NCBI GenBank assembly: GCA_022661535.1
Contig: JAKULF010000001.1
Coordinates: 1,240,001-1,304,000, forward strand
Direction: 5' to 3'
From: Eutypa lata
Taxonomy: Eukaryota; Ascomycota; Sordariomycetes; Xylariales; Diatrypaceae
Length of the DNA stretch: 64,000 nt
This document shows positions 18,487-36,601 of the stretch, piece after piece. Every line of letters begins with the position of its first letter. Positions within the stretch are counted from its first letter, which is position 1. The notes beneath the pieces were generated by a model. The model had not been told where the DNA came from. It saw only the letters and a list, made by a program, of their open reading frames with translations, and made no database searches. A program made the translations under genes and the position numbers.

Positions 18487-20515
18487 TTACACCTGGTATT
18501 CCTGAGTATTGCTCTCTTCCCACTTTCCGGGGACAAGAGCTAGAGGCACGATACCAGAGACATGCATCTCGGGGCCGAAGATCTTGCCGTTCAGGCCAAG
18601 CTCTTGTATCGCGGCCTTCATATTCTTCAGACCTTCTTGGTAGTTGGGTCCGGCACGTCGCACCCAGATTTGAACTAAAAGCTTGGTTAGACACGAATAT
18701 GTGAAAACAGGTTTTGGGGTAGCTTACCATTGTGCTCAATAAGTAGAGGAGCGAATTCACGCAACGCCTTGATGACACCCTTGAAGGTGGATGCGACGTT
18801 GGTGAAGTTGGCAATACCACCACCGATGAACAGAACCTTGCCACGGTCATCCTTGGGCGCCCGGATCATAAGATCCAGAACAGTCCGGGCATAGTAGAAG
18901 GTCTGAGACTCGGTAGGAGCACCCGAGTATTCACCGTAGTTAGCCAGCTCATCAGCGAAACCTGAGGAGGCAATGGCATCGGCGTAGACGACGGAAGCAC
19001 CACCACCGGCAACTAGCGTCCAGACGCGACCATTAGGGTTCAAGACGGTCAACTTCAGAGAAGCACCAGTCTTAGCATCCAGCTCGGCAATGTAAGCCTC
19101 TTCCTTGGTCAGCTCACGGCCGAAAGGAGCCGGGAACTCCATAGGAGGACCAGCATCGACGCTGATCTTGTCAGAGGCAACAGCGGCGATGCCAAGGTTG
19201 GCAGGGCTTCTCGCTACAGCCCACTTGACACCACATTCGAAATCAGCCGTCTGATCTATCTTAGCAGCAAGGTCAAGGAAGTAGACCTCTGCGGATGTGG
19301 CGTCGGCGTTAGGAATGACGACGAGAGGGTTAATTTCCAAGTAGGTAAACTGGCAGTCGACGTAAACGGCATATAAGCGGGAAATGAAGTCAACCAGAAC
19401 ATTGTGAACACCCTGGGGAACCTTCTTCAACAGTGTAGCGGCGATTTCCTCGTTGGAAGGGTACTGTGATAGGTCGACTGGAATAAGAAGCTTCTCAGCC
19501 TTAGCATCAACATCACCAACATCGACACCACCCTCGTGTGTGAAGAGAATCCAGTCACCCTAGATAAAATCACATGATTAGTATATATGTTTTTCTCTCC
19601 CAAGATTTTGCAAGAGCTAAGCGTTTGAATTCAATGGAAATCAAAAGAGTTGACAAATCAATAGATGACGATGCACGTTTAGATAACGTTGCACCCAAGC
19701 CAATGGGGGAGGGGAGTGGATGCGAGTGGGTTGCAAACAGAAATGTGGTTTAGTCTCCGTTCGTCCGCAACCACCGGTTTTGTCTAGTATTTCCGACCTG
19801 CCCTTATAAAGAGTAACGGTAACACCACTCAATGTTATCGCGGAGGTCTTCTCTCTACTATTTTCACCGAAACATCATATTTCCCATCTAATGGTGTCCC
19901 CCAGGTCTCTGTATATGGATTCACCTATCTCCAATTGCTGATGCCCTAGTAGCCTCCAATTCCGGGGTTTAAATAAGAGCGTCCAGCACTGCCAGATCAC
20001 CTTTTTGATTGGGCAATTAGAGGAAAATGAGGGGTTTTGCGACAACATAATAACGGACGGGGAATTATACTCACATCTCTAACAGAGTTGATGTTGATAT
20101 AGTACTCGGTTCCATCGGGGTGAGGAACAAATGGCTCGACCAAGAAATGTCGCAGAACACCCTCAACGTGTTCGACTTTCTGCACCTTTGCAGCACGCTC
20201 GGCGATCCAAGCCTTCGCCTCGGGCCAAGTCTTGTTGAGAGCCAGCAGACCACTCTTGCCTCGTCGCTTGATCAATTGATCAGGCTTCGCGACAAACTTA
20301 GCACCGGTCTGAAGCAACCATGGGTAGGTGACCTCTGCCTGGTTTAAAACGCCCTGTACGTCGGCATCCTCTGCGAAGTGCAGCGTAGCCAATCTGGGAG
20401 GAGGGTTGTGGGTGGTAGAAGCAGGGAGCGGGGTGGGCTTGATGACGGGAGCCCGCGTAAGGTGGTAGTTGAGAATGGCCTTGCCGTCGGCCTCGAAAAT
20501 GGATTTGGCAGACAT
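18487..20515 (-). CDS. acl2: ATP-citrate lyase subunit 2 (ATP-grasp/citrate-binding part)
   Basis: Exons 20515-20075, 19559-18728 and 18674-18487 join in phase to 486 residues, the usual length for the fungal small subunit. It matches the N-terminal half of animal ACLY. Recognisable are the start [37 protein letters not shown] of the ATP-grasp region, [37 protein letters not shown] (metal/nucleotide end of the ATP-grasp), and a citrate-binding domain with [24 protein letters not shown] and [11 protein letters not shown]. With subunit 1 it forms the cytosolic enzyme that cleaves citrate with CoA and ATP to acetyl-CoA and oxaloacetate, feeding lipid synthesis and histone acetylation. It is divergent from acl1, so co-regulation from the shared spacer is likely. 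Intron 1 is large for this genome (515 nt, 19560-20074). Confidence 0.95.
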
Positions 20516-23596: not shown

Positions 23597-25672
23597 ATGT
23601 CTCGATCTAACGGGCTCTCGACTACCTCGACGCCGGCACCGATCTCTGCCAATGACAATATCACTCGTTTCGCCGCTCCCAGCCGCCCTTTGAGCCCTCT
23701 TCCTCAACATGCTCTTTTCACCAACAAGACGAGATGTTTAGTCTACGGTCTGCAGAACCGAGCTGTTCAGGGTATGCTCGACTTTGACTTCATCTGCAAG
23801 CGGTCCACTCCCTCGGTTGCCGGCATTATCTATACTTTCGGTGGTCAGTTCGTCAGCAAGATGTACTGGGGAACCAGCGAGACCCTGCTTCCCGTCTACC
23901 AGAAGACTGCCTCAGCCATGGCCAAGCACCCTGACGTAGATGTTGTCGTCAACTTCGCCTCATCCCGAAGTGTCTACAGCTCTACTATGGAGCTGATGGA
24001 ATTCCCCCAGGTTAAGACTATTGCTATTATTGCTGAAGGTGTTCCAGAGCGAGTAAGTAGTTTGTACATACACATATCATGCATGTATCATGCATGTCAG
24101 CAGTATTCAGTTCTAACAAGCAATTATTAGCGTGCTCGAGAAATCGCTCATGTTGCCCGCAAGAAGGGCGTCACCATTATTGGTCCCGCCACCGTTGGTG
24201 GTATCAAGCCCGGTAGCTTCAAAATTGGCAACACGGGTGGTATGATGGACAACATTGTTGCCTCTAAGCTATACCGTAAGGGTTCCGTCGGCTATGTCTC
24301 CAAGTCCGGTGGTATGTCGAACGAGCTGAACAACATCATTGCCGCAAACACCGATGGTGTCTATGAGGGTATTGCTATTGGTGGTGACAGATATCCCGGT
24401 ACTACTTTCATTGACCACATGTTGAGATATCAACAAGACCCTGATTGCAAGATTCTTGTTCTGCTCGGTGAGGTTGGTGGTGTTGAGGAGTATAAGGTTA
24501 TAGATGCCGTGAAGCAAGGCATCATTACGAAGCCGATCGTGGCGTGGGCTATTGGTACTTGTGCTGCCATGTTCAAGACCGAGGTCCAGTTCGGCCACGC
24601 CGGTTCTTTCGCCAACTCTCAGCTTGAGACGGCGGCCACCAAAAACAAGACGATGAAGGAGGCTGGTATCCACGTCCCCAACACCTTCGAGGACCTTCCC
24701 TCCACCCTGAAGTCGGTGTACGATAAGCTCGTCTCTGATGGCACTATCAAGCCTCAGGCAGAGCCCGTCGTACCCAAGATTCCTATGGACTACTCGTGGG
24801 CCCAGGAACTTGGCCTCATCCGGAAGCCTTCTGCCTTCATCTCCACCATCTCAGATGACCGTGGCCAGGAGCTGTTGTACGCCGGTATGCCCATCTCGGA
24901 TGTCTTCAGGGAGGACATTGGTATCGGTGGTGTCATGTCTCTTCTGTGGTTCCGTCGCCGCCTGCCATCATACGCCTCCAAATTTTTGGAGATGGTTCTC
25001 ATGCTTACTGCTGATCACGGTCCGGCCGTCTCTGGTGCCATGAATACTATTATCACTACCCGTGCTGGCAAGGACTTAATCAGCTCGTTAGTTGCTGGTC
25101 TGCTAACCATTGGCTCTCGATTTGGTGGTGCTCTGGATGGCGCTGCCGAGGAGTTCTCGAAGGCATTCGACAACGGTCTCACCCCGCGTGACTTCGTCGA
25201 CTCGATGCGCAAACAGAACAAGCTTATTCCCGGTATTGGTCACCGTATCAAGTCGCGAAACAACCCCGATCTGCGTGTGGAGCTTGTTAAGGAGTATGTC
25301 CTAAAGAACTTCCCTAGTCATAAGCTCCTCGACTACGCTCTGGCGGTCGAGACTGTTACTACTTCGAAGAAAGATAACCTCATCCTGAACGTTGATGGCT
25401 GTATTGCCGTTTCGTTCATCGATTTGATGCGCAGCTGTGGTGCCTTCAACGTAGAGGAGGCCGAAGAGTACATGAAGATGGGTGTTCTGAACGGTCTCTT
25501 CGTTCTCGGCCGAAGTATCGGTCTGATTGCCCACTACCTCGACCAGAAGAGACTTAAGACCAGCTTGTACAGACATCCTTGGGATGACATCACGTACCTG
25601 CTCCCCTCTCTGGGCAAGTCTGGTACGGTGGGCGGGCCAGGCGAGAGCCGTGTGGAGGTTTCGATTAAATAA
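23597..25672 (+). CDS. acl1: ATP-citrate lyase subunit 1 (CoA ligase/citrate synthase-like part)
   Basis: Exons 23597-24052 and 24131-25672 (78-nt intron, GTAAGT donor) give 665 residues, matching the fungal large subunit and the C-terminal half of animal ACLY. After an ~40-residue N-terminal extension come the succinyl-CoA-synthetase-alpha-like CoA-binding and ligase domains, with [16 protein letters not shown] and the phosphohistidine loop [11 protein letters not shown] (His about residue 308). The citrate-synthase-like domain follows, with [21 protein letters not shown], the catalytic-type [14 protein letters not shown] (His about 523) and [15 protein letters not shown]. It catalyses citryl-CoA formation and cleavage together with the acl2 product in the cytosol. 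All key residues I can check are intact. Confidence 0.97.
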
Positions 25673-27555: not shown

Positions 27556-28782
27556 GGGTGTGAGGATTGCCGAGGTTACTTAAGGTATGCGAAGTTTTTG
27601 GGGCCGTTGAACTGGCTGGGGAGAAGGGGGGAGGATTGGGGAATGCAGGGGGAGGAAAAGAAAGGGAAAGGAAAGGAAAAGGAAAGGAAAACGAGATGTG
27701 AAGAGAAAGGGATCATGTTGTTTATTTTAACGCAACAAGCAACGGTTGGATGTTGGAAGATAGCATCCCAAGTTATGCTCTCCAAAGCATTCGTCCCTTG
27801 GTAGAGCAACACTATGTACAATGAATGTACTACCGACTTATATAACCTACCTACGGCTCTTCCACCGATGCCTTGATATTTGGCTCTGGTGCATCTAATA
27901 CTCAACGTCAGATTCACTGCTTCATCTACCTGCCCCTTGTCCACACATATACATAGGGTTAGTACCCCGTCATACAGATGGCCCCTTCATTTGGCTAGTA
28001 GAAAATTCAAGATGGCAATGGGATTAAATCATCCAGTGGCCGGGAAGTAAGTTTAAATGTCAATGGCAACCATTGCTCATCGGCATCGTATGCTCTAAAT
28101 CAAGCTCGATCTATGTAGCTTTATACTTTATACTTTATACCTGATCGAGGAGATGATACCTCCTGGTCTATAGCTTGATTCTTCCCTTATTTCTTACCAG
28201 CGTAGTTAAGGGCAAGATCGACGCAAGGCCGTAAAACGTTGTTCCTTTGCCTTGCGTTGGTGACAATCCTTTTTTATCGATCTTTCTCTCTTTTCCCGTC
28301 ACCCACTACCTAGGATTCACACCACCGTGAAAGAATTTGAAAGGTGTCACAACCATTCACATCACTCGTTCAGCGCCCTATTATTCTTATATCACCATGG
28401 GTTCATAGTATCATAGAAGGGCTCCATAGAATAACCATAGCCATATTATAAAAAGACATAATTGCTCGTTTCCATACTCGAATAGAAATCACGATTCAAG
28501 CCATATATTTAGTAAAACGCAAACGCAAGTCTCATTAGCTACCTAAGGCATCAATTGCCGTTGACGGAAATACCGTTACCACGGGTGGAAATATCGTGGC
28601 CTTTTCTTTTTTACAAGAGGGCAAATTTTAGAGGGGGGGCAAAGGGGAAGGTGTAGGAAATAGTAGGAAAGGGGGTGGTGCATTGTACAGTCCGTTGCCC
28701 ACCCATTAGTGGAGGGGAAAAAAAGTCATTTGCCGTCAGCCCCATTCAAGGCTCACATCGATATCGAGATTGACTTAGACAC
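27556..28782. other. intergenic between mrpl33 and the eaf3 3' end
   Basis: About 1.2 kb of convergent 3' flanks. A purine-rich AAGG-type tract lies at about 27640-27700 and a short TTTATACT repeat near 28120-28140. No gene supported. Confidence 0.5.
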
Positions 28783-31700
28783 CTAATTCTTGGCCTTCTC
28801 GGTATACTCGGAGTTCGGGTTCTCGTAGTCGGAGAGGAAGTAGTTCTCGGCGTTCTTGGACAGCCAGTTCGTGATCTTGGTCATCTCCTCGCGTAGGCGG
28901 TTGACAGACTGCTGATCCATGTTGGTCTGGGCAACAAGTTCCGGAAGGGAGACTATAGGGGAATACAAAATTAGCACGTGTTTGCTTGCTTTTGATCAGA
29001 TAGGTTATGAGGGTTTCCAACTCACCGATAAGACGCATCAGATGTTCTGCACCGTAGGTGTCAGATGCCGTCTTCTTGCCCTCCCATTCGGGATCATCAG
29101 AGTTCCACTTGGCGACAACTTCGGCGTATTGTGCTCTCTCGAATCTAATCAAATTAGCGGGATATACTTTTACCATCCAGACAAGATCACAAGCTCACCG
29201 ATAGAGGAGAATACGACCTAGCGCCTTGTCGAAGTACTCCTTAAGTCCGGCAAGGGTCTCGTGAAGGATGTCGACTTGTGCAGAACCCTCGGGGCGCTTT
29301 GGCGCTTCATACGCATTGTAGTCATCTAGAATTTTGGTAACGGGTTGGGGGTGGGGAAGGGGGACCAGTTGATTGTTCTTCGTAATGTTCTCCCAGTCAT
29401 CAACGAGGACAGCCTTCAAGATATCAGGGATCTTGAGCTTGACAGATGGTCGTGCATGGAAGGCGTCCTCCTGATTGAGAAATTAGCAAGCATAAGCAAG
29501 AGGTGAGTTGTAAATGAGTATGTAGTTTCACAGTAATAAGTCAGTCTGCATGTCATGATGGTTCCTAGAGTGCCTCGGAATCGGCACCGTTGGTGTCGCC
29601 AAGGTTCGCATCGTCCATGTTGGTGTCCACGATGTTAGTATGTCTAGCATCATCCTGGTTGGAATCCCTAACGTTAGCATCAACGTTGGGGCGGTAAGCT
29701 CTCATGAAGCTTCTATCCGGCTTTGCAATGCCGGCATCAGGAATGCGATACGGGTGTTTCTGGTTTCTTGGATGGGCCGCAGCCTGCTTTGCGTGATCAT
29801 CGAAGCGACCATCATTGTAGAGCGGGGCCATTCTTGCGTTCATATAACGATAACCAGGGGGGGGCAACCGGCCAAGATAAGGATAAGCCTTCTCACCCTC
29901 CTCGGCATATTTCGCCTCTTTTATCATGAACAGTCTTTGACGCTCAGCAATTCCCTCATCTGAGAGATCAAGTGGTGCATCTCCGGCAACGAAGACCTTC
30001 TCTTCAACGTTCTGACGTTTGGTAGCTCTTGATGCTTTGGTAGGCCTAGTAGAAAGTCTAGAGGGTGTTGCAGGGGCGGGAAGTCTGAGCCTATTAGATG
30101 CCAGATCTAGAGGCAGTGATGCGGAATCCTTGGGAGAACCACTAGTCTGGTTAAGCGCAGAGTCCTGAGGGGCAGACTTCGAAAGTGCTGACTTCGAAGG
30201 GGTAGGCTTTGAAGCGGCAGGCTTTGAAACGGCAGGCTTTGAAACGGCAGACTTCATGGCGGCAGATTTCGTAACAGCAGATCTTAAAAGAGCAATTCTT
30301 TTTGACTGTGTGGGTTTCTGGCTACCCATTTCGTCAAGGTTGGGGTTAGAATGGTCTATTGTCTCAGTTGCTGCGGTCGCTTCGGTCGCTTCGGTTGCTA
30401 CAGAGCTTGTAGAGTCTGCAGGATCAGAGCTCTTGGATACAACCCCAATTGACAACAGTGTGGAAGGTGTCGACAATTGAGAAGGTGCCGAAGATGGAGA
30501 CGGATCGTTGATTGAAGGCGATGCAAAAGGCCTTGAAATTGATGTTGCAACTGCAGAAGTTGATGACGCAGAAGGCACTAGAAGTGATGGCGCAGTGCGA
30601 GTTGTTGATGATGAAGAAGGTTCAGGAAAAAGAGATGAATTATCAGTTGATGTTGAGAAGGGGACGGGAAATGATGGGGTGCCGTTGATGGATGATGCAG
30701 AAGGCACTGATTGATTTTGAGTTGTTTGTGCACTGGACGTAGAAGGTCCAGGAAATGAGGAGGTAAATTTTGGTGTCGACAAATTGGAAGGTGCGTCAAG
30801 TGGTGGTGAAATTTGATTTGACGAAGCAGCAGGTACCGGAAATGATGGACCAGTCTGGGTCGTAAAGGCAGAAGATGCAGAAGATGCTGCAGGGTGAATT
30901 GATGATGTATCAAATCTAGGAAATGATGGCGCGTTTGATGCGGGCTTGATTGTAAAGCCAGGTCTTGGACCAGATTGAATTGGCATTGATGAAGAAGGCA
31001 CAGGATACCCTGAGGTACTTGGTACCGAAGTAGATGAAACCAATGCTGGGGATTGAACGGTAGCCTGGGCTACCAAAGATCCAGTAGGTGCAGGTGCACT
31101 AGGTGCAGACGTGTCTGGTGACTTGGTTGGTGACGACTTCTTTTCAGCATTCTTCAGAAGGTCCAGGACAGATGGCCCGTTGGGCACGTTAGTTCTGGCT
31201 TTAGGCTTTGTATTACGAGCCTTAATCTGAACACGGACTTCATCCTCGCCCTGGCCAGCCCTGAGCCAACTTCCAATGGATGTCTGTTTGAAACGCGACG
31301 GAATTGGGGCCTTAGGCGAATCAACATCCCGGGTATGTCCGCTCCCAGGTTGACTTGGGTTTGCATCCGCATTTGCTACACCAGCCACGGGACCAGCTGC
31401 AATCTGGTCTTGAAGAGCATCATCATCCGCACCAGCCTTGGAACCACTACTAGCTTGGTTTTGAGGCACATCTGACTCATCTTGACGATTGTTCGGGTTC
31501 ATGACGAAGGGAGGTTAATCAAGTTTGAGATAAAAGAATATTGATGATCAACAGGTGTGTATGGTGATCGTCGAGTGAGTGTGAATAATCGTCGAGTGAG
31601 TTTGAGTAATCGTCGAGTGAGTTTGAGTAATCGTCGGAGTGAGATTGTAGTAACCGTCGAGTGGGACTGATAATTGCCAGGTGGGATAATCATCAAATGA

Positions 31701-34700
31701 GATCTAGAATCTTCAAGTGAAATTGAGACTTATTGAGTAATACTGAAATCAGTCAAGTACTACTCAGATTTGTCGAAATTGTTGCGTGAGAGTGACGTTC
31801 GTCAAGTGAGTGGCAGTCGTCAAGTGAGAGTTAGAATCGTCGAGTGAGAGTTAGAATCGTCGAGTGAGAGTTAGAATCGTCGAGTGAGATTCAGAGTCGA
31901 CGAGTGAGATTCAGAATGGCCAGATGATCCGCAATGTGAGATGTAAAAAAGAAGTGAACGTCAAGGCTCGGCTAAGAAAGATAACCAGCAGTAATACTAG
32001 TCAGGTGAAGAACCAGTATGAAAATAGAAGGAATTGAAGTCAAGCTGCAGACGATAAAGAAAGCCCACAAGAGGCTGCTTGGTCAAGGAATCAAGTAGTG
32101 TGGTGGGAAGAGGAACCAAGTCAAGGTGTTGGTGGTGAAGAAAGTTGGTAGAGAGATAGGATGGGTGGAGGGTGAAGTAGAATCCTCGGATGCGGGAAAG
32201 GTAGTAGGTAGTGTGACTGAAATATTAAATTCAGTTTGCATGCTTAAAAGCGGAAGGATGCGGGTCCGTGGACCAGACAAACTGCGGCGTAACGACATCA
32301 TTGACCCCTTTCGAGAAGGAGCACGCGATAGTCTCCGGTGGTAGGGTATTCAATTCTCAATGTGCACATATCCTTGACCACTGCTCGAGAAGGAGCACGT
32401 AGATGTTCCGTATACTCGACTGGCTGTAGCCAAATGTATATCGCCGACCCCTTTCCGAGAAGGAGCACGCGCTATAGCTATAGGGCATAATAAGTCTGTC
32501 ATGTCACAATGTAGATATTTCGCCGACCCCTTTCAAGAAGGAGCACGCGGTTCGTGCATCCTAGGGCACAGGTGGGTTACTCAAGGCGTAATACTGATGC
32601 CGGCCCCTATTCGAGAAGGAGCACGCGCATCACGACTTGTTCATCACAACACCAACTCGGCTGCAAAGCCTACTGCTAACGTTCTACCACCAACTGTGCC
32701 AGCATGTCCTAAGAAAGACACAGAGATCTAAGGCGCACCTTAGACTCCAAAGTGACCAAATATAATTATGGCTGGAGGGTCCCAATCTGCCAGTGTCATA
32801 ACAAACAACGTGCTATAGTAGTAAGAGACACAGGCCTAGCGAGCCGTCATATATGATTCGCCAACCACTATGTGAGAAAAGCCTGCTATCTAGGTAGTTG
32901 CCAAAGAATACAGGCAGTCCAAGTCATAATGCGGATATTTCGTCGACCCCTTTTTTAGGAAAGAGCACGCGATATGCTAGTCGTATAATGATGTAGGTCC
33001 ACCAAGCAGTAATTTAGACACACCAATGGCCCATTTCCCAAATGAGAGCAGACGCTCTTACAGCCGTAGGGGATCATAAGTCTCCTGACAACAAACCATG
33101 CAGAGTCATAATGGGGAGACAACTCTAAGCATGTCTAAAGAACTGATAGTGTCGTATAGGGCGTCAAAGGGTAAAAAACAACCTGGGGCCTCAAGCAGCG
33201 CCATTCATGGCAGAGGATGGATAACATATGTGGAGTGTAAAACACTCATGGCTGAGTGGTAGATTCAACAGGGTAAAGGTCCAAAGCTAGAGCGTTAAGC
33301 TAGGAAGAAGCAGATGGCATAGCTTGAATGGAGAAAGGTGCTGGTCCTCCTCCAACAAGTGTAGCGAAGTCGCAATACTAAACTTTGACGATAGATCCTA
33401 GCTAGAGAGAACAGATGGTTTGGACATGGCAGATTTGTCAAATCATAATACCAAGTCGTGGTAACACCTCATATTCAAGGAGTAATGTGTGAAGTGGTGT
33501 CCAGTGTTCGGAATATCGTAGGATGCAGGCCGTACGACAATGGATTGGTGTAACCACGATGCCAGACTATGATACCAAGTACTGAGCCCCTGTCTAGTAG
33601 GAACAGACAGCACATACTCCAGTCGATTAGAAGCATATATCGGTTGAAACATAACTGTGAATCACAGTGTTGGACTCATTCAACGAGAGGTGGATAATAT
33701 GGGTCGTAGACAATGTTGATGAGGCGTGGGATGCTTTGATCCCAGGACTGGGCAGGGACACAAGGGTTTGATTCCAAAAGAAGTGTAAGGCCTTTGTTCA
33801 ATATGCTAGACCCCTTTTAGACTGCCACATACTGAGTAGCCCTATAAGTCCCGCAGAAACAGCCCCCATGAATGAGGGAATTGCTATTCCTAAGTTCAGA
33901 ACAGATGAGTACATCAATGATGTAAGACATCGATTTCCCCGAGATGGAAAGTGTTGAGATTGCTAAAGACTTGAAAGGCACGACACCCTGGAGACAAGGA
34001 ATCCATGTCCATTTAAGAGCAGGAAGTTCGTAGGCTGAAGTGGTGAGATGGATATCGCTCTCAATGAAAACGAGATAGTTGAATGTTATCACGAGGTCGA
34101 ACGTGAACCATCATGGGGAGGCGGGAGGCACTCCGTAGACAACGTGTTCCTTCGCATTGTTAAAATCGTCGTTTTTATCAACCTATTCCGTTCTTAGTGA
34201 TGCCGATTCTCATCTATTTCCTAGTATGCACATAGCCGTACCTCTGAGCTCGCAATAAAGTCCTCTTCCTTTGCTCGAATGCCTATTAGACCTCCTGGTC
34301 GCATATGATGTTGGTTCTCAACAGGCGTTATTCCCTAAGGCAACGCTAAATTGCACTTCTACTTGGACGCTTTTCGTGTTTTTGGTATTATTCGCCCCTT
34401 ATAGTGTGTTCTCAGGAGCCATCAATGTTCTTGCTGTCACTGAACACATTGCGACTCTTGACATCCAAGAGATTTCTCCTGAAAAGGCTTTAGATATGGG
34501 TGAGGTGTTGGGCCTACCCATGACGGGGACGATGATGATAAGGGAACGATCTTGAAGGGCAAGGACAAAGTTAATTATCCAGATAGGTGTCTGTTTGATA
34601 TAGCAGCTCCACTTGTACCATATTCCAAAGGTTGTCCTCAGGCATGTACTTTGAGGTCTAGCAGTTCTTTAAGGCGATATGGGGTTTCTGCCTAATTCCT

Positions 34701-36030
34701 CAAGTTCAAGGACAGCTGTTGCGATAAAGGACAACGTGAGAACCAGATAGAAAGATGAATTTCCTTCAACATCTTTAGCTAATGCAGAAATCCTTCTCAT
34801 CTCAGTGTCTCAACAGCCTGGAACTTGAAAGTAGTACACCACCCATACAATGGTAGGCGCCTGCTTCCATATAGACATACGCTCTTTCTTCTCTTAGTCC
34901 GGTTATTAGACAGCGAAAGGTTCCAGGATTTCCCCTGTCAACGGAAAATGTAGCATTGACAATCCATAGCTGGCGCCATAGCAGCCTGAAGCTGTAGCAT
35001 TTCCCTAGGTAGAGTATGTGAGGAGTTGGCTGGTCTGTAAGGGAAACCTCGTAAACCTTCTCTCTAGAATTCCTGATCTCAGATCTGGATGAAACATATT
35101 ATGAGGGCATGCCATACGTAAAGCTCCTCAGTGTAGTCGAGTTTCAACTTAGTACATGAGATCAAGTTGCCAGGTGTTCCAACATCCTAGCAACCGTAGT
35201 GCCTTAAGACGAACTTGAACTATACCAGGCGGCTTATGATTAAGTCGTTCTTTATTCTCCCACCTTATGGTACGATACTCGGGACATCATGGATTTTAAT
35301 GCCCCTTTCGAGTTAAATTTCGTTACGGAAGGATACGAGGATCCTCTTCAAGTTATAATCCAGGGCATTCCGATTCCGAGGGACTCCGGGTTCCGATGGT
35401 ACTCTAGGACATATCACGCATGACATTTTTGCAGACGACTCAATACAAACCAGGATAAGAACAAAGGAAACAAACACAAAAAATAAACAATGAACTTACA
35501 CTCTCGAGTTCGTAATCCCGACCCCGTCTCGGACCACGTCCGGCAAAGCTAGAGGAGCCAGCGGCGCGCTCCTCACTGCCCCTAGCGGAGCTCATCTCGG
35601 AGCCGGCCTTGCCCGCGGGACCGCCACCCTTCTTGCCGCCGGTGATGGTAGGACCACCCTTGCCGTGGCCGCCGTGGTGACCCTGGGTGCGCATGGTGGC
35701 CTGGGCGCGGAGCTGGCTCGCAAGCTGCTTGTTGTCGTCGGTGAACTTGCGGATGCGGTCCGCCGTCACCCAGTCGTCCCAGCTGGCCTTCCAACCCTTG
35801 TAGTGCACGCGGTACATGACGTCGTCGGCCGGGTTGCCGCCGGACGACTTGCTGCTGCTGCCGCCTTCCTTGTTGCCGCCGCCGCCGCTACCGCCCGACG
35901 TGGACGAGGTCGTTGACGCTGTCTGGCGGATGTCGATGATCTTCGCCTCGTACATCAGGTCCCCATGGAAACAGAGGACCTTCTCATCTTTGGCGTACGG
36001 AGGCGCATGGTTGTGCTTCGAAGGCGCCAT
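28783..36030 (-). CDS. eaf3: Eaf3/MRG15-family chromatin protein, split by a 6-kb intron
   Basis: Exons 36030-35500, 29470-29199, 29144-29026 and 28952-28783 join in phase to 363 residues. Exon 1 encodes a chromobarrel (about residues 14-96) with cage aromatics at Y27, Y77, W80 and W84 and a Gly/Ser-rich insert at 38-68, then a Gly-rich linker ending GRDYELES. The next three exons encode EDAFHARPSVKLKIPD and a full MRG domain (AVLVDDWENITK, LLYRFERAQYAE, VSLPELVAQTNM, NWLSKNAENYFL). The family reads H3K36 methylation in the NuA4 acetyltransferase and Rpd3S deacetylase complexes. Introns 2 and 3 are 54 and 73 nt, but intron 1 is 6,029 nt and contains a TIR-bounded insertion with its own open frame. 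Whether this intron is spliced is not known from sequence; if not, the gene is disrupted. Confidence 0.85.
29539..29584 (+). repeat. left terminal inverted repeat of the eaf3 insertion
   Basis: Contains GTCTGCATGTCATG, then TCCTAGAGT and CTCGGAATCGG. The stop codon of the nested 645-codon frame (29565-29567) falls inside it. Pairs with 35370-35441 in inverted orientation. Confidence 0.65.
29565..31502 (-). CDS. disordered repeat protein nested in eaf3 intron, 645 aa
   Basis: One uninterrupted frame starting MNPNNRQDESDVPQNQ, on the same strand as eaf3, wholly within its intron 1. I do not recognise it. Residues 1-110 are polar. About 115-370 is Ser/Pro/Thr-rich with a degenerate unit around PSFPVPxxSS. 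About 400-440 has K-S/P-A-x-S five-residue repeats. About 500-600 looks the most constrained: KVFVAGDAPLDLSDEGIAER, AYPYLGRLPPPGYRYMNARM and QKHPYRIPD. The tail has Asp/Asn repeats such as TNMDDANLGD. There is no signal peptide or membrane segment. The stop lies in the left terminal repeat, only about 95 nt before eaf3 exon 2. Length, codon regularity and lack of stops argue for a real gene. It is not like any transposase I know. Confidence 0.55.
   Translation of the reverse strand: MNPNNRQDESDVPQNQASSGSKAGADDDALQDQIAAGPVAGVANADANPSQPGSGHTRDVDSPKAPIPSRFKQTSIGSWLRAGQGEDEVRVQIKARNTKPKARTNVPNGPSVLDLLKNAEKKSSPTKSPDTSAPSAPAPTGSLVAQATVQSPALVSSTSVPSTSGYPVPSSSMPIQSGPRPGFTIKPASNAPSFPRFDTSSIHPAASSASSAFTTQTGPSFPVPAASSNQISPPLDAPSNLSTPKFTSSFPGPSTSSAQTTQNQSVPSASSINGTPSFPVPFSTSTDNSSLFPEPSSSSTTRTAPSLLVPSASSTSAVATSISRPFASPSINDPSPSSAPSQLSTPSTLLSIGVVSKSSDPADSTSSVATEATEATAATETIDHSNPNLDEMGSQKPTQSKRIALLRSAVTKSAAMKSAVSKPAVSKPAASKPTPSKSALSKSAPQDSALNQTSGSPKDSASLPLDLASNRLRLPAPATPSRLSTRPTKASRATKRQNVEEKVFVAGDAPLDLSDEGIAERQRLFMIKEAKYAEEGEKAYPYLGRLPPPGYRYMNARMAPLYNDGRFDDHAKQAAAHPRNQKHPYRIPDAGIAKPDRSFMRAYRPNVDANVRDSNQDDARHTNIVDTNMDDANLGDTNGADSEAL
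31565..31925. repeat. degenerate 21-bp minisatellite
   Basis: Units of about 21 bp resembling AATCGTCGAGTGAGAGTTAG repeat with drift. The best conserved runs are at about 31565-31640 and 31800-31910, with decayed units between. The array sits directly upstream of the start codon of the nested 645-codon frame. Confidence 0.8.
32301..32971 (+). repeat. array of a conserved 25-30 bp block at about 70-80 bp spacing
   Basis: Near-identical blocks of the form GACCCC(T)n followed by CGAGAAGGAGCACGCG occur at about 32301, 32374, 32442, 32521 and 32599, with a diverged copy at 32942. The preceding bases are also partly shared (ATATTTCGCC or a variant). The spacers between blocks are unrelated. Further decayed copies may exist near 33020, 33575 and 33808. 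Inside the block, CCTT and AAGG can pair around a 5-nt loop. The changing frame between copies argues against a protein repeat. Confidence 0.75.
32972..35369. other. unrecognised interior of the eaf3 insertion
   Basis: About 2.4 kb inside the insertion. Apart from the decayed repeat blocks mentioned in the array entry, I see no gene. A 95-codon frame at 34271-34555 (plus) and a 91-codon frame at 33817-34092 (minus) show no known domain and may be random or relics. Confidence 0.5.
35370..35441 (-). repeat. right terminal inverted repeat of the eaf3 insertion
   Basis: On the minus strand it reads GAGTCGTCTGC, an A-run, ATGTCATG, TCCTAGAGT and, after extra bases, CTCGGAATCGG, matching the left repeat block by block. 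It lies about 58 nt inside the eaf3 exon 1 donor site. Confidence 0.65.
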
Positions 36031-36601
36031 GATGACTGGCCCCTTCTTGCTAGTGGTTGGTTGTTGTGGTATCTGGTAGTTGTTGGGTGAGCACAGAGTC
36101 CAGTGGAGGTATGTAGACGGAATGAGAAAGGTGGTAGATAGTAGTAAGTACCTTACTAGGTAGCGACCAAGTTCAAGTTAGTCCAGGCCGAGAGACAGGG
36201 CACTGAAACGGATCGTTATTCGTCGCTAGGGTGATTTGAGGTCTCTCATACGAGATTGCCTAGGCACGTAACAGTGCAAGTCGCCGTTGCTATGTAGGAG
36301 GCAAGATGAGGATCCGATATCGAAGAATGGGAAATCGCAATCGCGAGACAGGGATTATCGTTTAAGTGGATAAAGCTCGGACGCGCTCTAGAACGCGACT
36401 TCGCTTAAGTGAATTGACTGTACTTAGCACCTAGAGCTCCAAATATTAGACCCTACATTGCATTTCTACGTCACTTATCTCGGAACTATATCTAACCTAT
36501 TAACTCGTAGAATTTATAGCCAGACGAGAGGGGAGTTGAGGAGATTTGTTACACAAGTTCTATCAAGGAACGCCCTTCTTAGGTAATCAACAAACGAAAC
36601 A
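36031..36601. promoter_or_regulatory. divergent promoter between eaf3 and the Cnl2-family gene
   Basis: 571 bp separate two divergent start codons, so both promoters must lie here. No TATA box or named factor site is convincing. No other feature seen. Confidence 0.6.

Follow-up and report, generated by a model that had tools for sequence, protein, structure and literature searches.

A conserved domain-bearing gene probably nested in the 6-kb first intron of eaf3 in Eutypa lata

The chromobarrel and MRG halves of eaf3 in Eutypa lata are separated by a gap of about 6 kb in the window analyzed here (the whole 64,000-nt stretch of DNA under study, C6:1240001–1304000). We consider it likely that this gap is a genuine spliceosomal intron hosting a conserved nested gene on the same strand, and that host and guest make up a compound locus with mutually exclusive products. 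The exceptional length of this fungal intron would then be explained by a probably inherited pair of host and nested gene, and not by a tolerated load or by damage. The nested gene would also define a protein family for which neither Pfam nor the PDB offered a match in the searches that we ran.

Results

Splicing the four minus-strand exons in silico yielded an uninterrupted Eaf3 of 363 aa. Exon 1 (35500–36030, minus strand) carries the start codon, the chromobarrel and the linker, and ends with GRDYELES in phase 0. Intron 1 follows (29471–35499, minus strand; 6,029 nt; GTAAGT...GCTAATTTCTCAATCAG; phase 0), after which the MRG domain, delimited by profile search and splicing, starts in exon 2 (29199–29470, minus strand; EDAFHARPSVKLKIPD), continues through exon 3 (29026–29144, minus strand) and ends with the stop codon in exon 4 (28783–28952, minus strand). 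Introns 2 and 3 measure 54 and 73 nt, and GCTAAT lies close to the acceptor in all three introns. With its GT–AG ends, its branch-point-like GCTAAT and a frame that is kept over the junction, intron 1 has the sequence features of a spliceosomal intron. An earlier note on this DNA had proposed just such a phase-0 intron of 6,029 nt with a GTAAGT donor, against 54 and 73 nt for the others, and the splicing of the exons bears this out.

The spliced protein matches solved structures over nearly its full length (PDB chain 7yi0_C, query residues 13–354, E 2.1e-46), and chains that hold only the chromobarrel or only the MRG part of Eaf3/MRG15 match it as well. At the N-terminus, residues 12–111 match the chromobarrel chain 2k3y, and at the C-terminus PF05712 scores above its cut-off in three exons. 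The claim that both halves are intact, in order and on one strand therefore holds. The best-matching Eaf3 proteins point to Xylariales, and the 89% identity of the MRG half to that of Diatrype stigma points, probably, to Diatrypaceae. A simple pattern for the chromobarrel–MRG junction, ..LE|E.F..RP, is present in 102 of the 125 proteins collected, these plain-junction records (of the ~320-aa type) being proteins that are silent on whether their own introns hold a nested gene. Inside the chromobarrel lies a Ser/Gly-rich stretch of ~32 residues (35827–35922), where the loop of relatives like P0003 is far shorter.

A PF05712 search of the 54.5-Mb assembly (29 contigs) found MRG exons in two places only, the eaf3 locus and a site on contig C11, so splicing of intron 1 is needed for a full Eaf3. 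The C11 site belongs to a repeat of the whole window (1–64000, at about 3316445–3380400 of C11) with 0 substitutions and small gaps only; the seven C11 stretches that cover the window (L007–L013) are 99.79–99.96% identical to it, with 0 mismatches each. In the four stretches read gap by gap (L007, L008 and L010, which lie within the window, and L014, some 70 kb off), all 35 gaps fall on the C11 side, and those displayed lie mostly in base runs. One-sided gaps of this kind, together with 0 mismatches, are the pattern that one would see if the same DNA had been assembled a second time and left unpolished. Farther away, C11 differs from C6 by 82 substitutions at 3.00 Mb (C6 about 1.62 Mb) and by 70 in its last 9.4 kb (C6 about 1.066 Mb), with gaps on both sides and with many C>T and G>A changes among the substitutions in both stretches. 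The repeat of the window may reflect redundancy in the assembly or else a large duplication that took place recently, and the C11 copy is probably redundant and not an independent second eaf3. Because of its 0 mismatches and one-sided gaps, we dropped C11 as evidence of an independent allele. A diploid assembly is not favored either, given that RPO41 has one match on a large contig and that 8 kb of C11 at 2.0 Mb have no second full copy. The same search for the single-subunit RNA polymerase (RPO41) gave diverged matches with in-frame TGA on C26 and C27, a pattern also seen on mitochondrial plasmids.

The C11 copy has the same intron 1, apart from a C run that is 3 nt shorter, and offers no short-intron form of eaf3. 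The earlier note had held that its reading would fall if junction reads were absent and an intact second eaf3 lay elsewhere in the genome, or if the gap were an assembly error. The PF05712 search showed no intact second eaf3 in the assembly, the sole other MRG locus being the probably redundant C11 copy, intron included; nor is the gap a plain error, since its parts recur both on C11 (probably not an independent witness) and in Logan protein clusters. Exon 1 continues into the start of the intron in cluster P0080 (longest contig 11.5 kb), and cluster P0121 (longest contig 27.7 kb) carries the nested ORF at 97% identity.

That ORF is a single open frame of 645 aa plus stop on the same strand as eaf3 (29565–31502, minus strand). 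It fills the last third of intron 1 and lies, complete, within the bounds of this one host intron (31502–29565 within 35499–29471). When the bases of the intron were shuffled 500 times, no open stretch exceeded 253 codons. The first ~500 residues are rich in Ser, Pro and Thr, and most of the ORF outside its C-terminal domain is of low complexity; the conserved domain described below falls within the last quarter. The frame closes with TAG, and the 94 nt from there to the start of the MRG exon (29471–29564, minus strand) hold the branch-point-like GCTAAT and the 3' splice site. The MRG frame itself meets a stop immediately upstream of the acceptor (its open stretch starts at 29482), and a consensus scan for donors leading from the nested ORF to MRG found none in phase, the only donor (29896) being in phase 1. 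In the window, then, neither an open frame nor an in-phase splice would allow the nested ORF to serve as an alternative first exon for MRG.

Comparison with the Logan clusters is consistent with protein constraint on the ORF. Aligned over 640 residues, the ORF and P0121 show 12 differences, along with two gaps of 3 and 5 residues. Exon 1 shows 0 differences from P0080 over 177 residues, and the first 31 codons of the intron differ from P0080 at five positions, one of which is a stop in the window. The lower divergence of the ORF than of the intron start (12/640 against 5/31, Fisher P 6e-4) fits constraint on a protein, in a rough test in which P0080 and P0121 are cluster representatives, perhaps of different strains. 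The GC content at third positions counts against a coding reading: it is 0.39 in the nested ORF, against 0.54–0.80 in all but one of the window's 15 other frames with 220 codons or more. Pfam gave nothing above its cut-off for the ORF; a weak match to HC2 (E 0.0052; 17.3 bits, where the cut-off is 40) was taken as low complexity. Rfam had no match at the gathering threshold in 28700–36100, so a structural RNA was rejected. The FxLP motif, defined for MRG-binding proteins (Pf1, MRGBP and PALB2) in PMC8701324 and PMC4426367, is absent from the window's nested ORF, and in the conserved LP.P segment the F position is taken by L, S, T or G in the aligned rows.

Upstream of the nested start are two tandem arrays (31567–31917, minus strand), one of 21-nt units (31567–31663) and one of 20-nt units (31799–31917). 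Beyond them are six copies of a 30-nt motif (32299–32972, minus strand), five of them spaced 70–78 nt apart. A 24-nt core of this motif, allowing up to 3 mismatches, recovered three of the six sites and the same three on C11, and occurred nowhere else in the assembly. We regard the motif array as a candidate regulatory array of the nested gene. Repeats and a pyrimidine-rich stretch lie at about 32.3–31.5 kb. The ~4 kb upstream of the nested ORF (31520–35490) are single-locus in the assembly (plus the C11 copy) and have no known role beyond the repeats.

The link between the nested ORF and other fungi comes from its C-terminal domain. A search for Eaf3 proteins scored 7,988 candidates and returned 1,330, and we inspected all thirteen proteins longer than 370 aa among the best 120 of these 1,330. 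In seven of the thirteen, among the matches listed, a conserved domain of ~85 aa stands directly before MRG. Six of the seven are annotated as three-part models: Xylaria multiplex (P0032), Annulohypoxylon sp. (P0033), Xylaria polymorpha (P0034, domain partial), Parahypoxylon (P0036), Xylariaceae sp. FL0804 (P0040) and Gaeumannomyces (P0111). The seventh, from Diatrype stigma (P0098), has the domain before MRG and no chromobarrel. The consensus of the domain is F..KE..YA....A...L..LP.P..RYVD.....RF....HPKL.EA...GTLT....WY..MP..V.IPVAGIP...PY.P; the aligned rows are 23–37% identical to the first row, with five invariant columns.

Leave-one-out profiles of the domain found all six trained rows (36.0–92.3 bits), and P0034, which was outside the training set, scored 27.5 bits. 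A profile built without Diatrypaceae gave 49.8 bits to P0098 of Diatrype stigma and 24.1 bits to the window ORF (E 2.2e-7, Z set to 121), and among 400 shuffled sequences (half made from the window ORF, half from the P0111 insert) none scored above 8.8 bits with the six-row profile. In the window the domain extends over 29700–29960 (minus strand), limits that come from a profile which includes P0121 and are to that extent circular for the window ORF. A single-sequence search with the nested ORF itself, in which a capped set of 7,988 candidates was scored, matched only P0121, so that it is the domain profile which ties the ORF to relatives. The conservation at the same place concerns the C-terminal domain only, and the place is read from the relatives' proteins and not from their DNA.

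No known family or fold was recognized in these inserts. Pfam gave nothing above its cut-off for those of five relatives (weak matches below it were ignored), and the P0036 version of the domain had no PDB match at E up to 10. A structure model of P0122, a further domain protein described below, had a pLDDT of 62.9 and a pTM of 0.26, without a confident fold. A model of the P0036 fusion places two short helices of the domain at 305–313 and 318–326, in blocks of mean pLDDT 81–91 between stretches below 50, and much of the remaining insert is below 50 as well.

In the other six of the thirteen long matches (P0112, P0059, P0071, P0077, P0095 and P0001) the domain is absent, and the last five of these owe their length to linkers or N-terminal extensions. 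P0112, from Colletotrichum sp. SAR 10_96, has a long acidic insert at the Eaf3 junction that is different from the domain (-0.1 bits with the domain profile); it may represent a different gene within that intron, or else an intron that was misread.

A search with the domain alignment (3,888 candidates scored) added four proteins, P0122–P0125, all from Logan contigs. P0122 has 183 aa, ends without MRG and is 66% identical to the Gaeumannomyces form. P0123, P0124 and P0125 each begin with a nested N-terminus, continue across the domain and enter the first MRG exon, ending at ..LGRILLYK, where the next intron would start, as uninterrupted genomic frames would. In P0032, P0034, P0036, P0040, P0123, P0124 and P0125 the residues before the MRG exon read N...Q|EE.F, which is what translation of the branch point (CTAAY) and CAG in a plain eaf3 intron would give. 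Judged from these protein letters, the nested frame appears to be open through the eaf3 3' splice site into MRG in those seven relatives. The species-named records among them (P0032, P0034, P0036 and P0040) are gene models, and their fused forms may be wrong as proteins.

By taxonomy, Diatrype and Parahypoxylon are Xylariales in the Xylariomycetidae, and Gaeumannomyces tritici belongs to the Magnaporthales in the Sordariomycetidae; Xylaria and Annulohypoxylon are placed in Xylariales as well. Since the domain stands in the same place in two subclasses, the pair of eaf3 and nested gene probably dates from the ancestor of Xylariomycetidae and Sordariomycetidae. Its place before MRG in other Xylariales and in Gaeumannomyces indicates that the arrangement was probably inherited, which speaks against a recent disruption.

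Discussion

On this evidence, the gap looks like a real intron and an old shared design rather than damage, disruption of eaf3 is unlikely, and a nested gene that bears a conserved domain accounts for at least part of the intron's length. The earlier note had left a choice between an intron load that splicing tolerates and an H3K36me reader that is disrupted or split into two products. Its gene model stands, yet the choice overlooked the main content of the intron, a coding sequence on the same strand that carries a conserved domain. The separate chromobarrel and MRG products that it envisaged survive in altered form: a chromobarrel-less MRG protein is possible in some relatives, those with an open frame, but in the window the nested frame has a stop of its own.

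We propose that a transcript from the eaf3 promoter, with intron 1 spliced, would give the full-length Eaf3 with chromobarrel and MRG, and that a transcript begun inside the intron, or one in which intron 1 is kept, would give the nested protein. The internal start would probably lie near the repeat arrays and the pyrimidine-rich stretch, at about 32.3–31.5 kb. Because only 94 nt separate the nested stop from the MRG exon, the nested message would most likely run on and share the 3' exons and the terminator of eaf3. In several relatives, the open frame could yield a nested–MRG protein without chromobarrel. If both products are made, a single choice of splicing or promoter would set the balance between the H3K36me reader and a reader-less product, and the two genes may in this way be coupled in their regulation. 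More tentatively, and with rather less confidence than doubt, we speculate that eaf3 of Sordariomycetes is an old two-in-one chromatin gene, in which the choice between splicing and transcribing the intron sets the ratio of Eaf3 to a chromobarrel-less product (a separate nested protein here, a nested–MRG fusion in Xylaria-like species) that could compete with or redirect Rpd3S and NuA4.

The two genes may instead be independent and have nothing but their position in common, the nested one being served by a separate promoter and by a poly(A) site of its own within the last 94 nt of the intron. We judge this a serious contender, if somewhat improbable. The nested ORF of the window has its own stop before the splice site, the frame of P0122 ends at 183 aa without MRG, and the 94-nt stretch, as we read its sequence, includes AT-rich candidate fungal cleavage sites. 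However, 94 nt leave very little room for a 3' untranslated region, and independence sits poorly with the seven relatives whose nested frame seems to cross the 3' splice site into MRG uninterrupted. That the nested ORF is an alternatively spliced middle part of one large chromobarrel–nested–MRG protein is improbable. The three-part annotated models (P0032, P0033, P0034, P0036, P0040 and P0111) are what such a protein would look like, but in four of the six (P0032, P0034, P0036 and P0040) the branch point and acceptor of a plain intron seem to have been translated (..N..Q|EE), the outcome expected when gene prediction overlooks a long intron; P0033 and P0111 are without this sign. Moreover, the nested frame of the window ends in a stop, the scan offers it no in-phase consensus donor to MRG, and the Diatrype record P0098 has no chromobarrel.

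That same record could be taken, along with the extreme length of the intron, to mean that Eaf3 is truly split, the intron being no longer spliced and the halves being separate genes; an unspliced exon 1 would indeed stop after 19 intron codons and give a chromobarrel-only protein. Yet donor, branch point, acceptor and phase are all intact, and annotations across relatives show a plain Eaf3 joined at this junction, so that we find a split very improbable. An insertion of a mobile element, or an artefact of assembly, is brought to mind by the size of the intron and by the duplication of the region on C11, and is largely refuted and scarcely credible: 31520–35490 and the C-terminal 141 aa of the nested protein were found in the assembly only here and on C11, Pfam detected no transposon domain in the nested ORF, and the domain is conserved in place in relatives. 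As a candidate class, a mobile element was rejected with neither multiple copies nor a transposase or reverse transcriptase found. We therefore retain, as the likely reading, a spliced host intron with a conserved nested gene and mutually exclusive products. It also implies likely annotation errors in public Eaf3 records, both in the three-part fusions and in the record without chromobarrel.

Known loci resemble this arrangement in part. In the cholinergic locus, according to PMC3053374, the single-exon ORF of VAChT lies in the first intron of ChAT, an arrangement long conserved and served by several promoters and splice forms. Those are neurotransmitter genes of animals whose two proteins cooperate; in the eaf3 pair the nested frame appears open into a host exon in some relatives. 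An MRG gene whose reader part is altered by alternative splicing is found in mouse, where PMC12145428 describes MRG15S and MRG15L; there the difference is a 39-aa insertion inside the chromo domain and not a nested gene. The solved structures of Eaf3 (8i02 and 7yi0) have the same chromobarrel and MRG parts and match nearly the full length of the spliced protein, but the nested domain has no PDB match (in its P0036 version) and no Pfam match above cut-off. In humans, MRG15 (MORF4L1) is a full chromodomain–MRG protein and MRGX (MORF4L2) an MRG protein without chromodomain and with a different N-terminus. MRG15 and MRGX are products of two separate mammalian genes, whereas a chromobarrel-less form of Eaf3 would share the eaf3 locus, and would do so only in the relatives with an open frame. 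Nested genes on the opposite strand are called rare in PMC4363200. The listings of literature that we searched on eaf3 with introns, nested genes or Magnaporthe, and on fungal nested genes and long introns, most subscription journals being outside their scope, contain no account of the arrangement.

The surroundings of eaf3 include two genes for inner kinetochore proteins, Cnl2/NKP2 (PF09447; 36587–36955, plus strand), which adjoins eaf3 and is divergent from it, and CENP-Q (PF13094; 39147–41348, plus strand) nearby. On the other side of eaf3 are the frames of both ATP citrate lyase subunits (18690–19559, minus strand, and 24131–25669, plus strand). Hypoxylon texense has an Eaf3 record (P0029) that bears the name ATP citrate lyase subunit 1, perhaps as a result of a conserved neighborhood.
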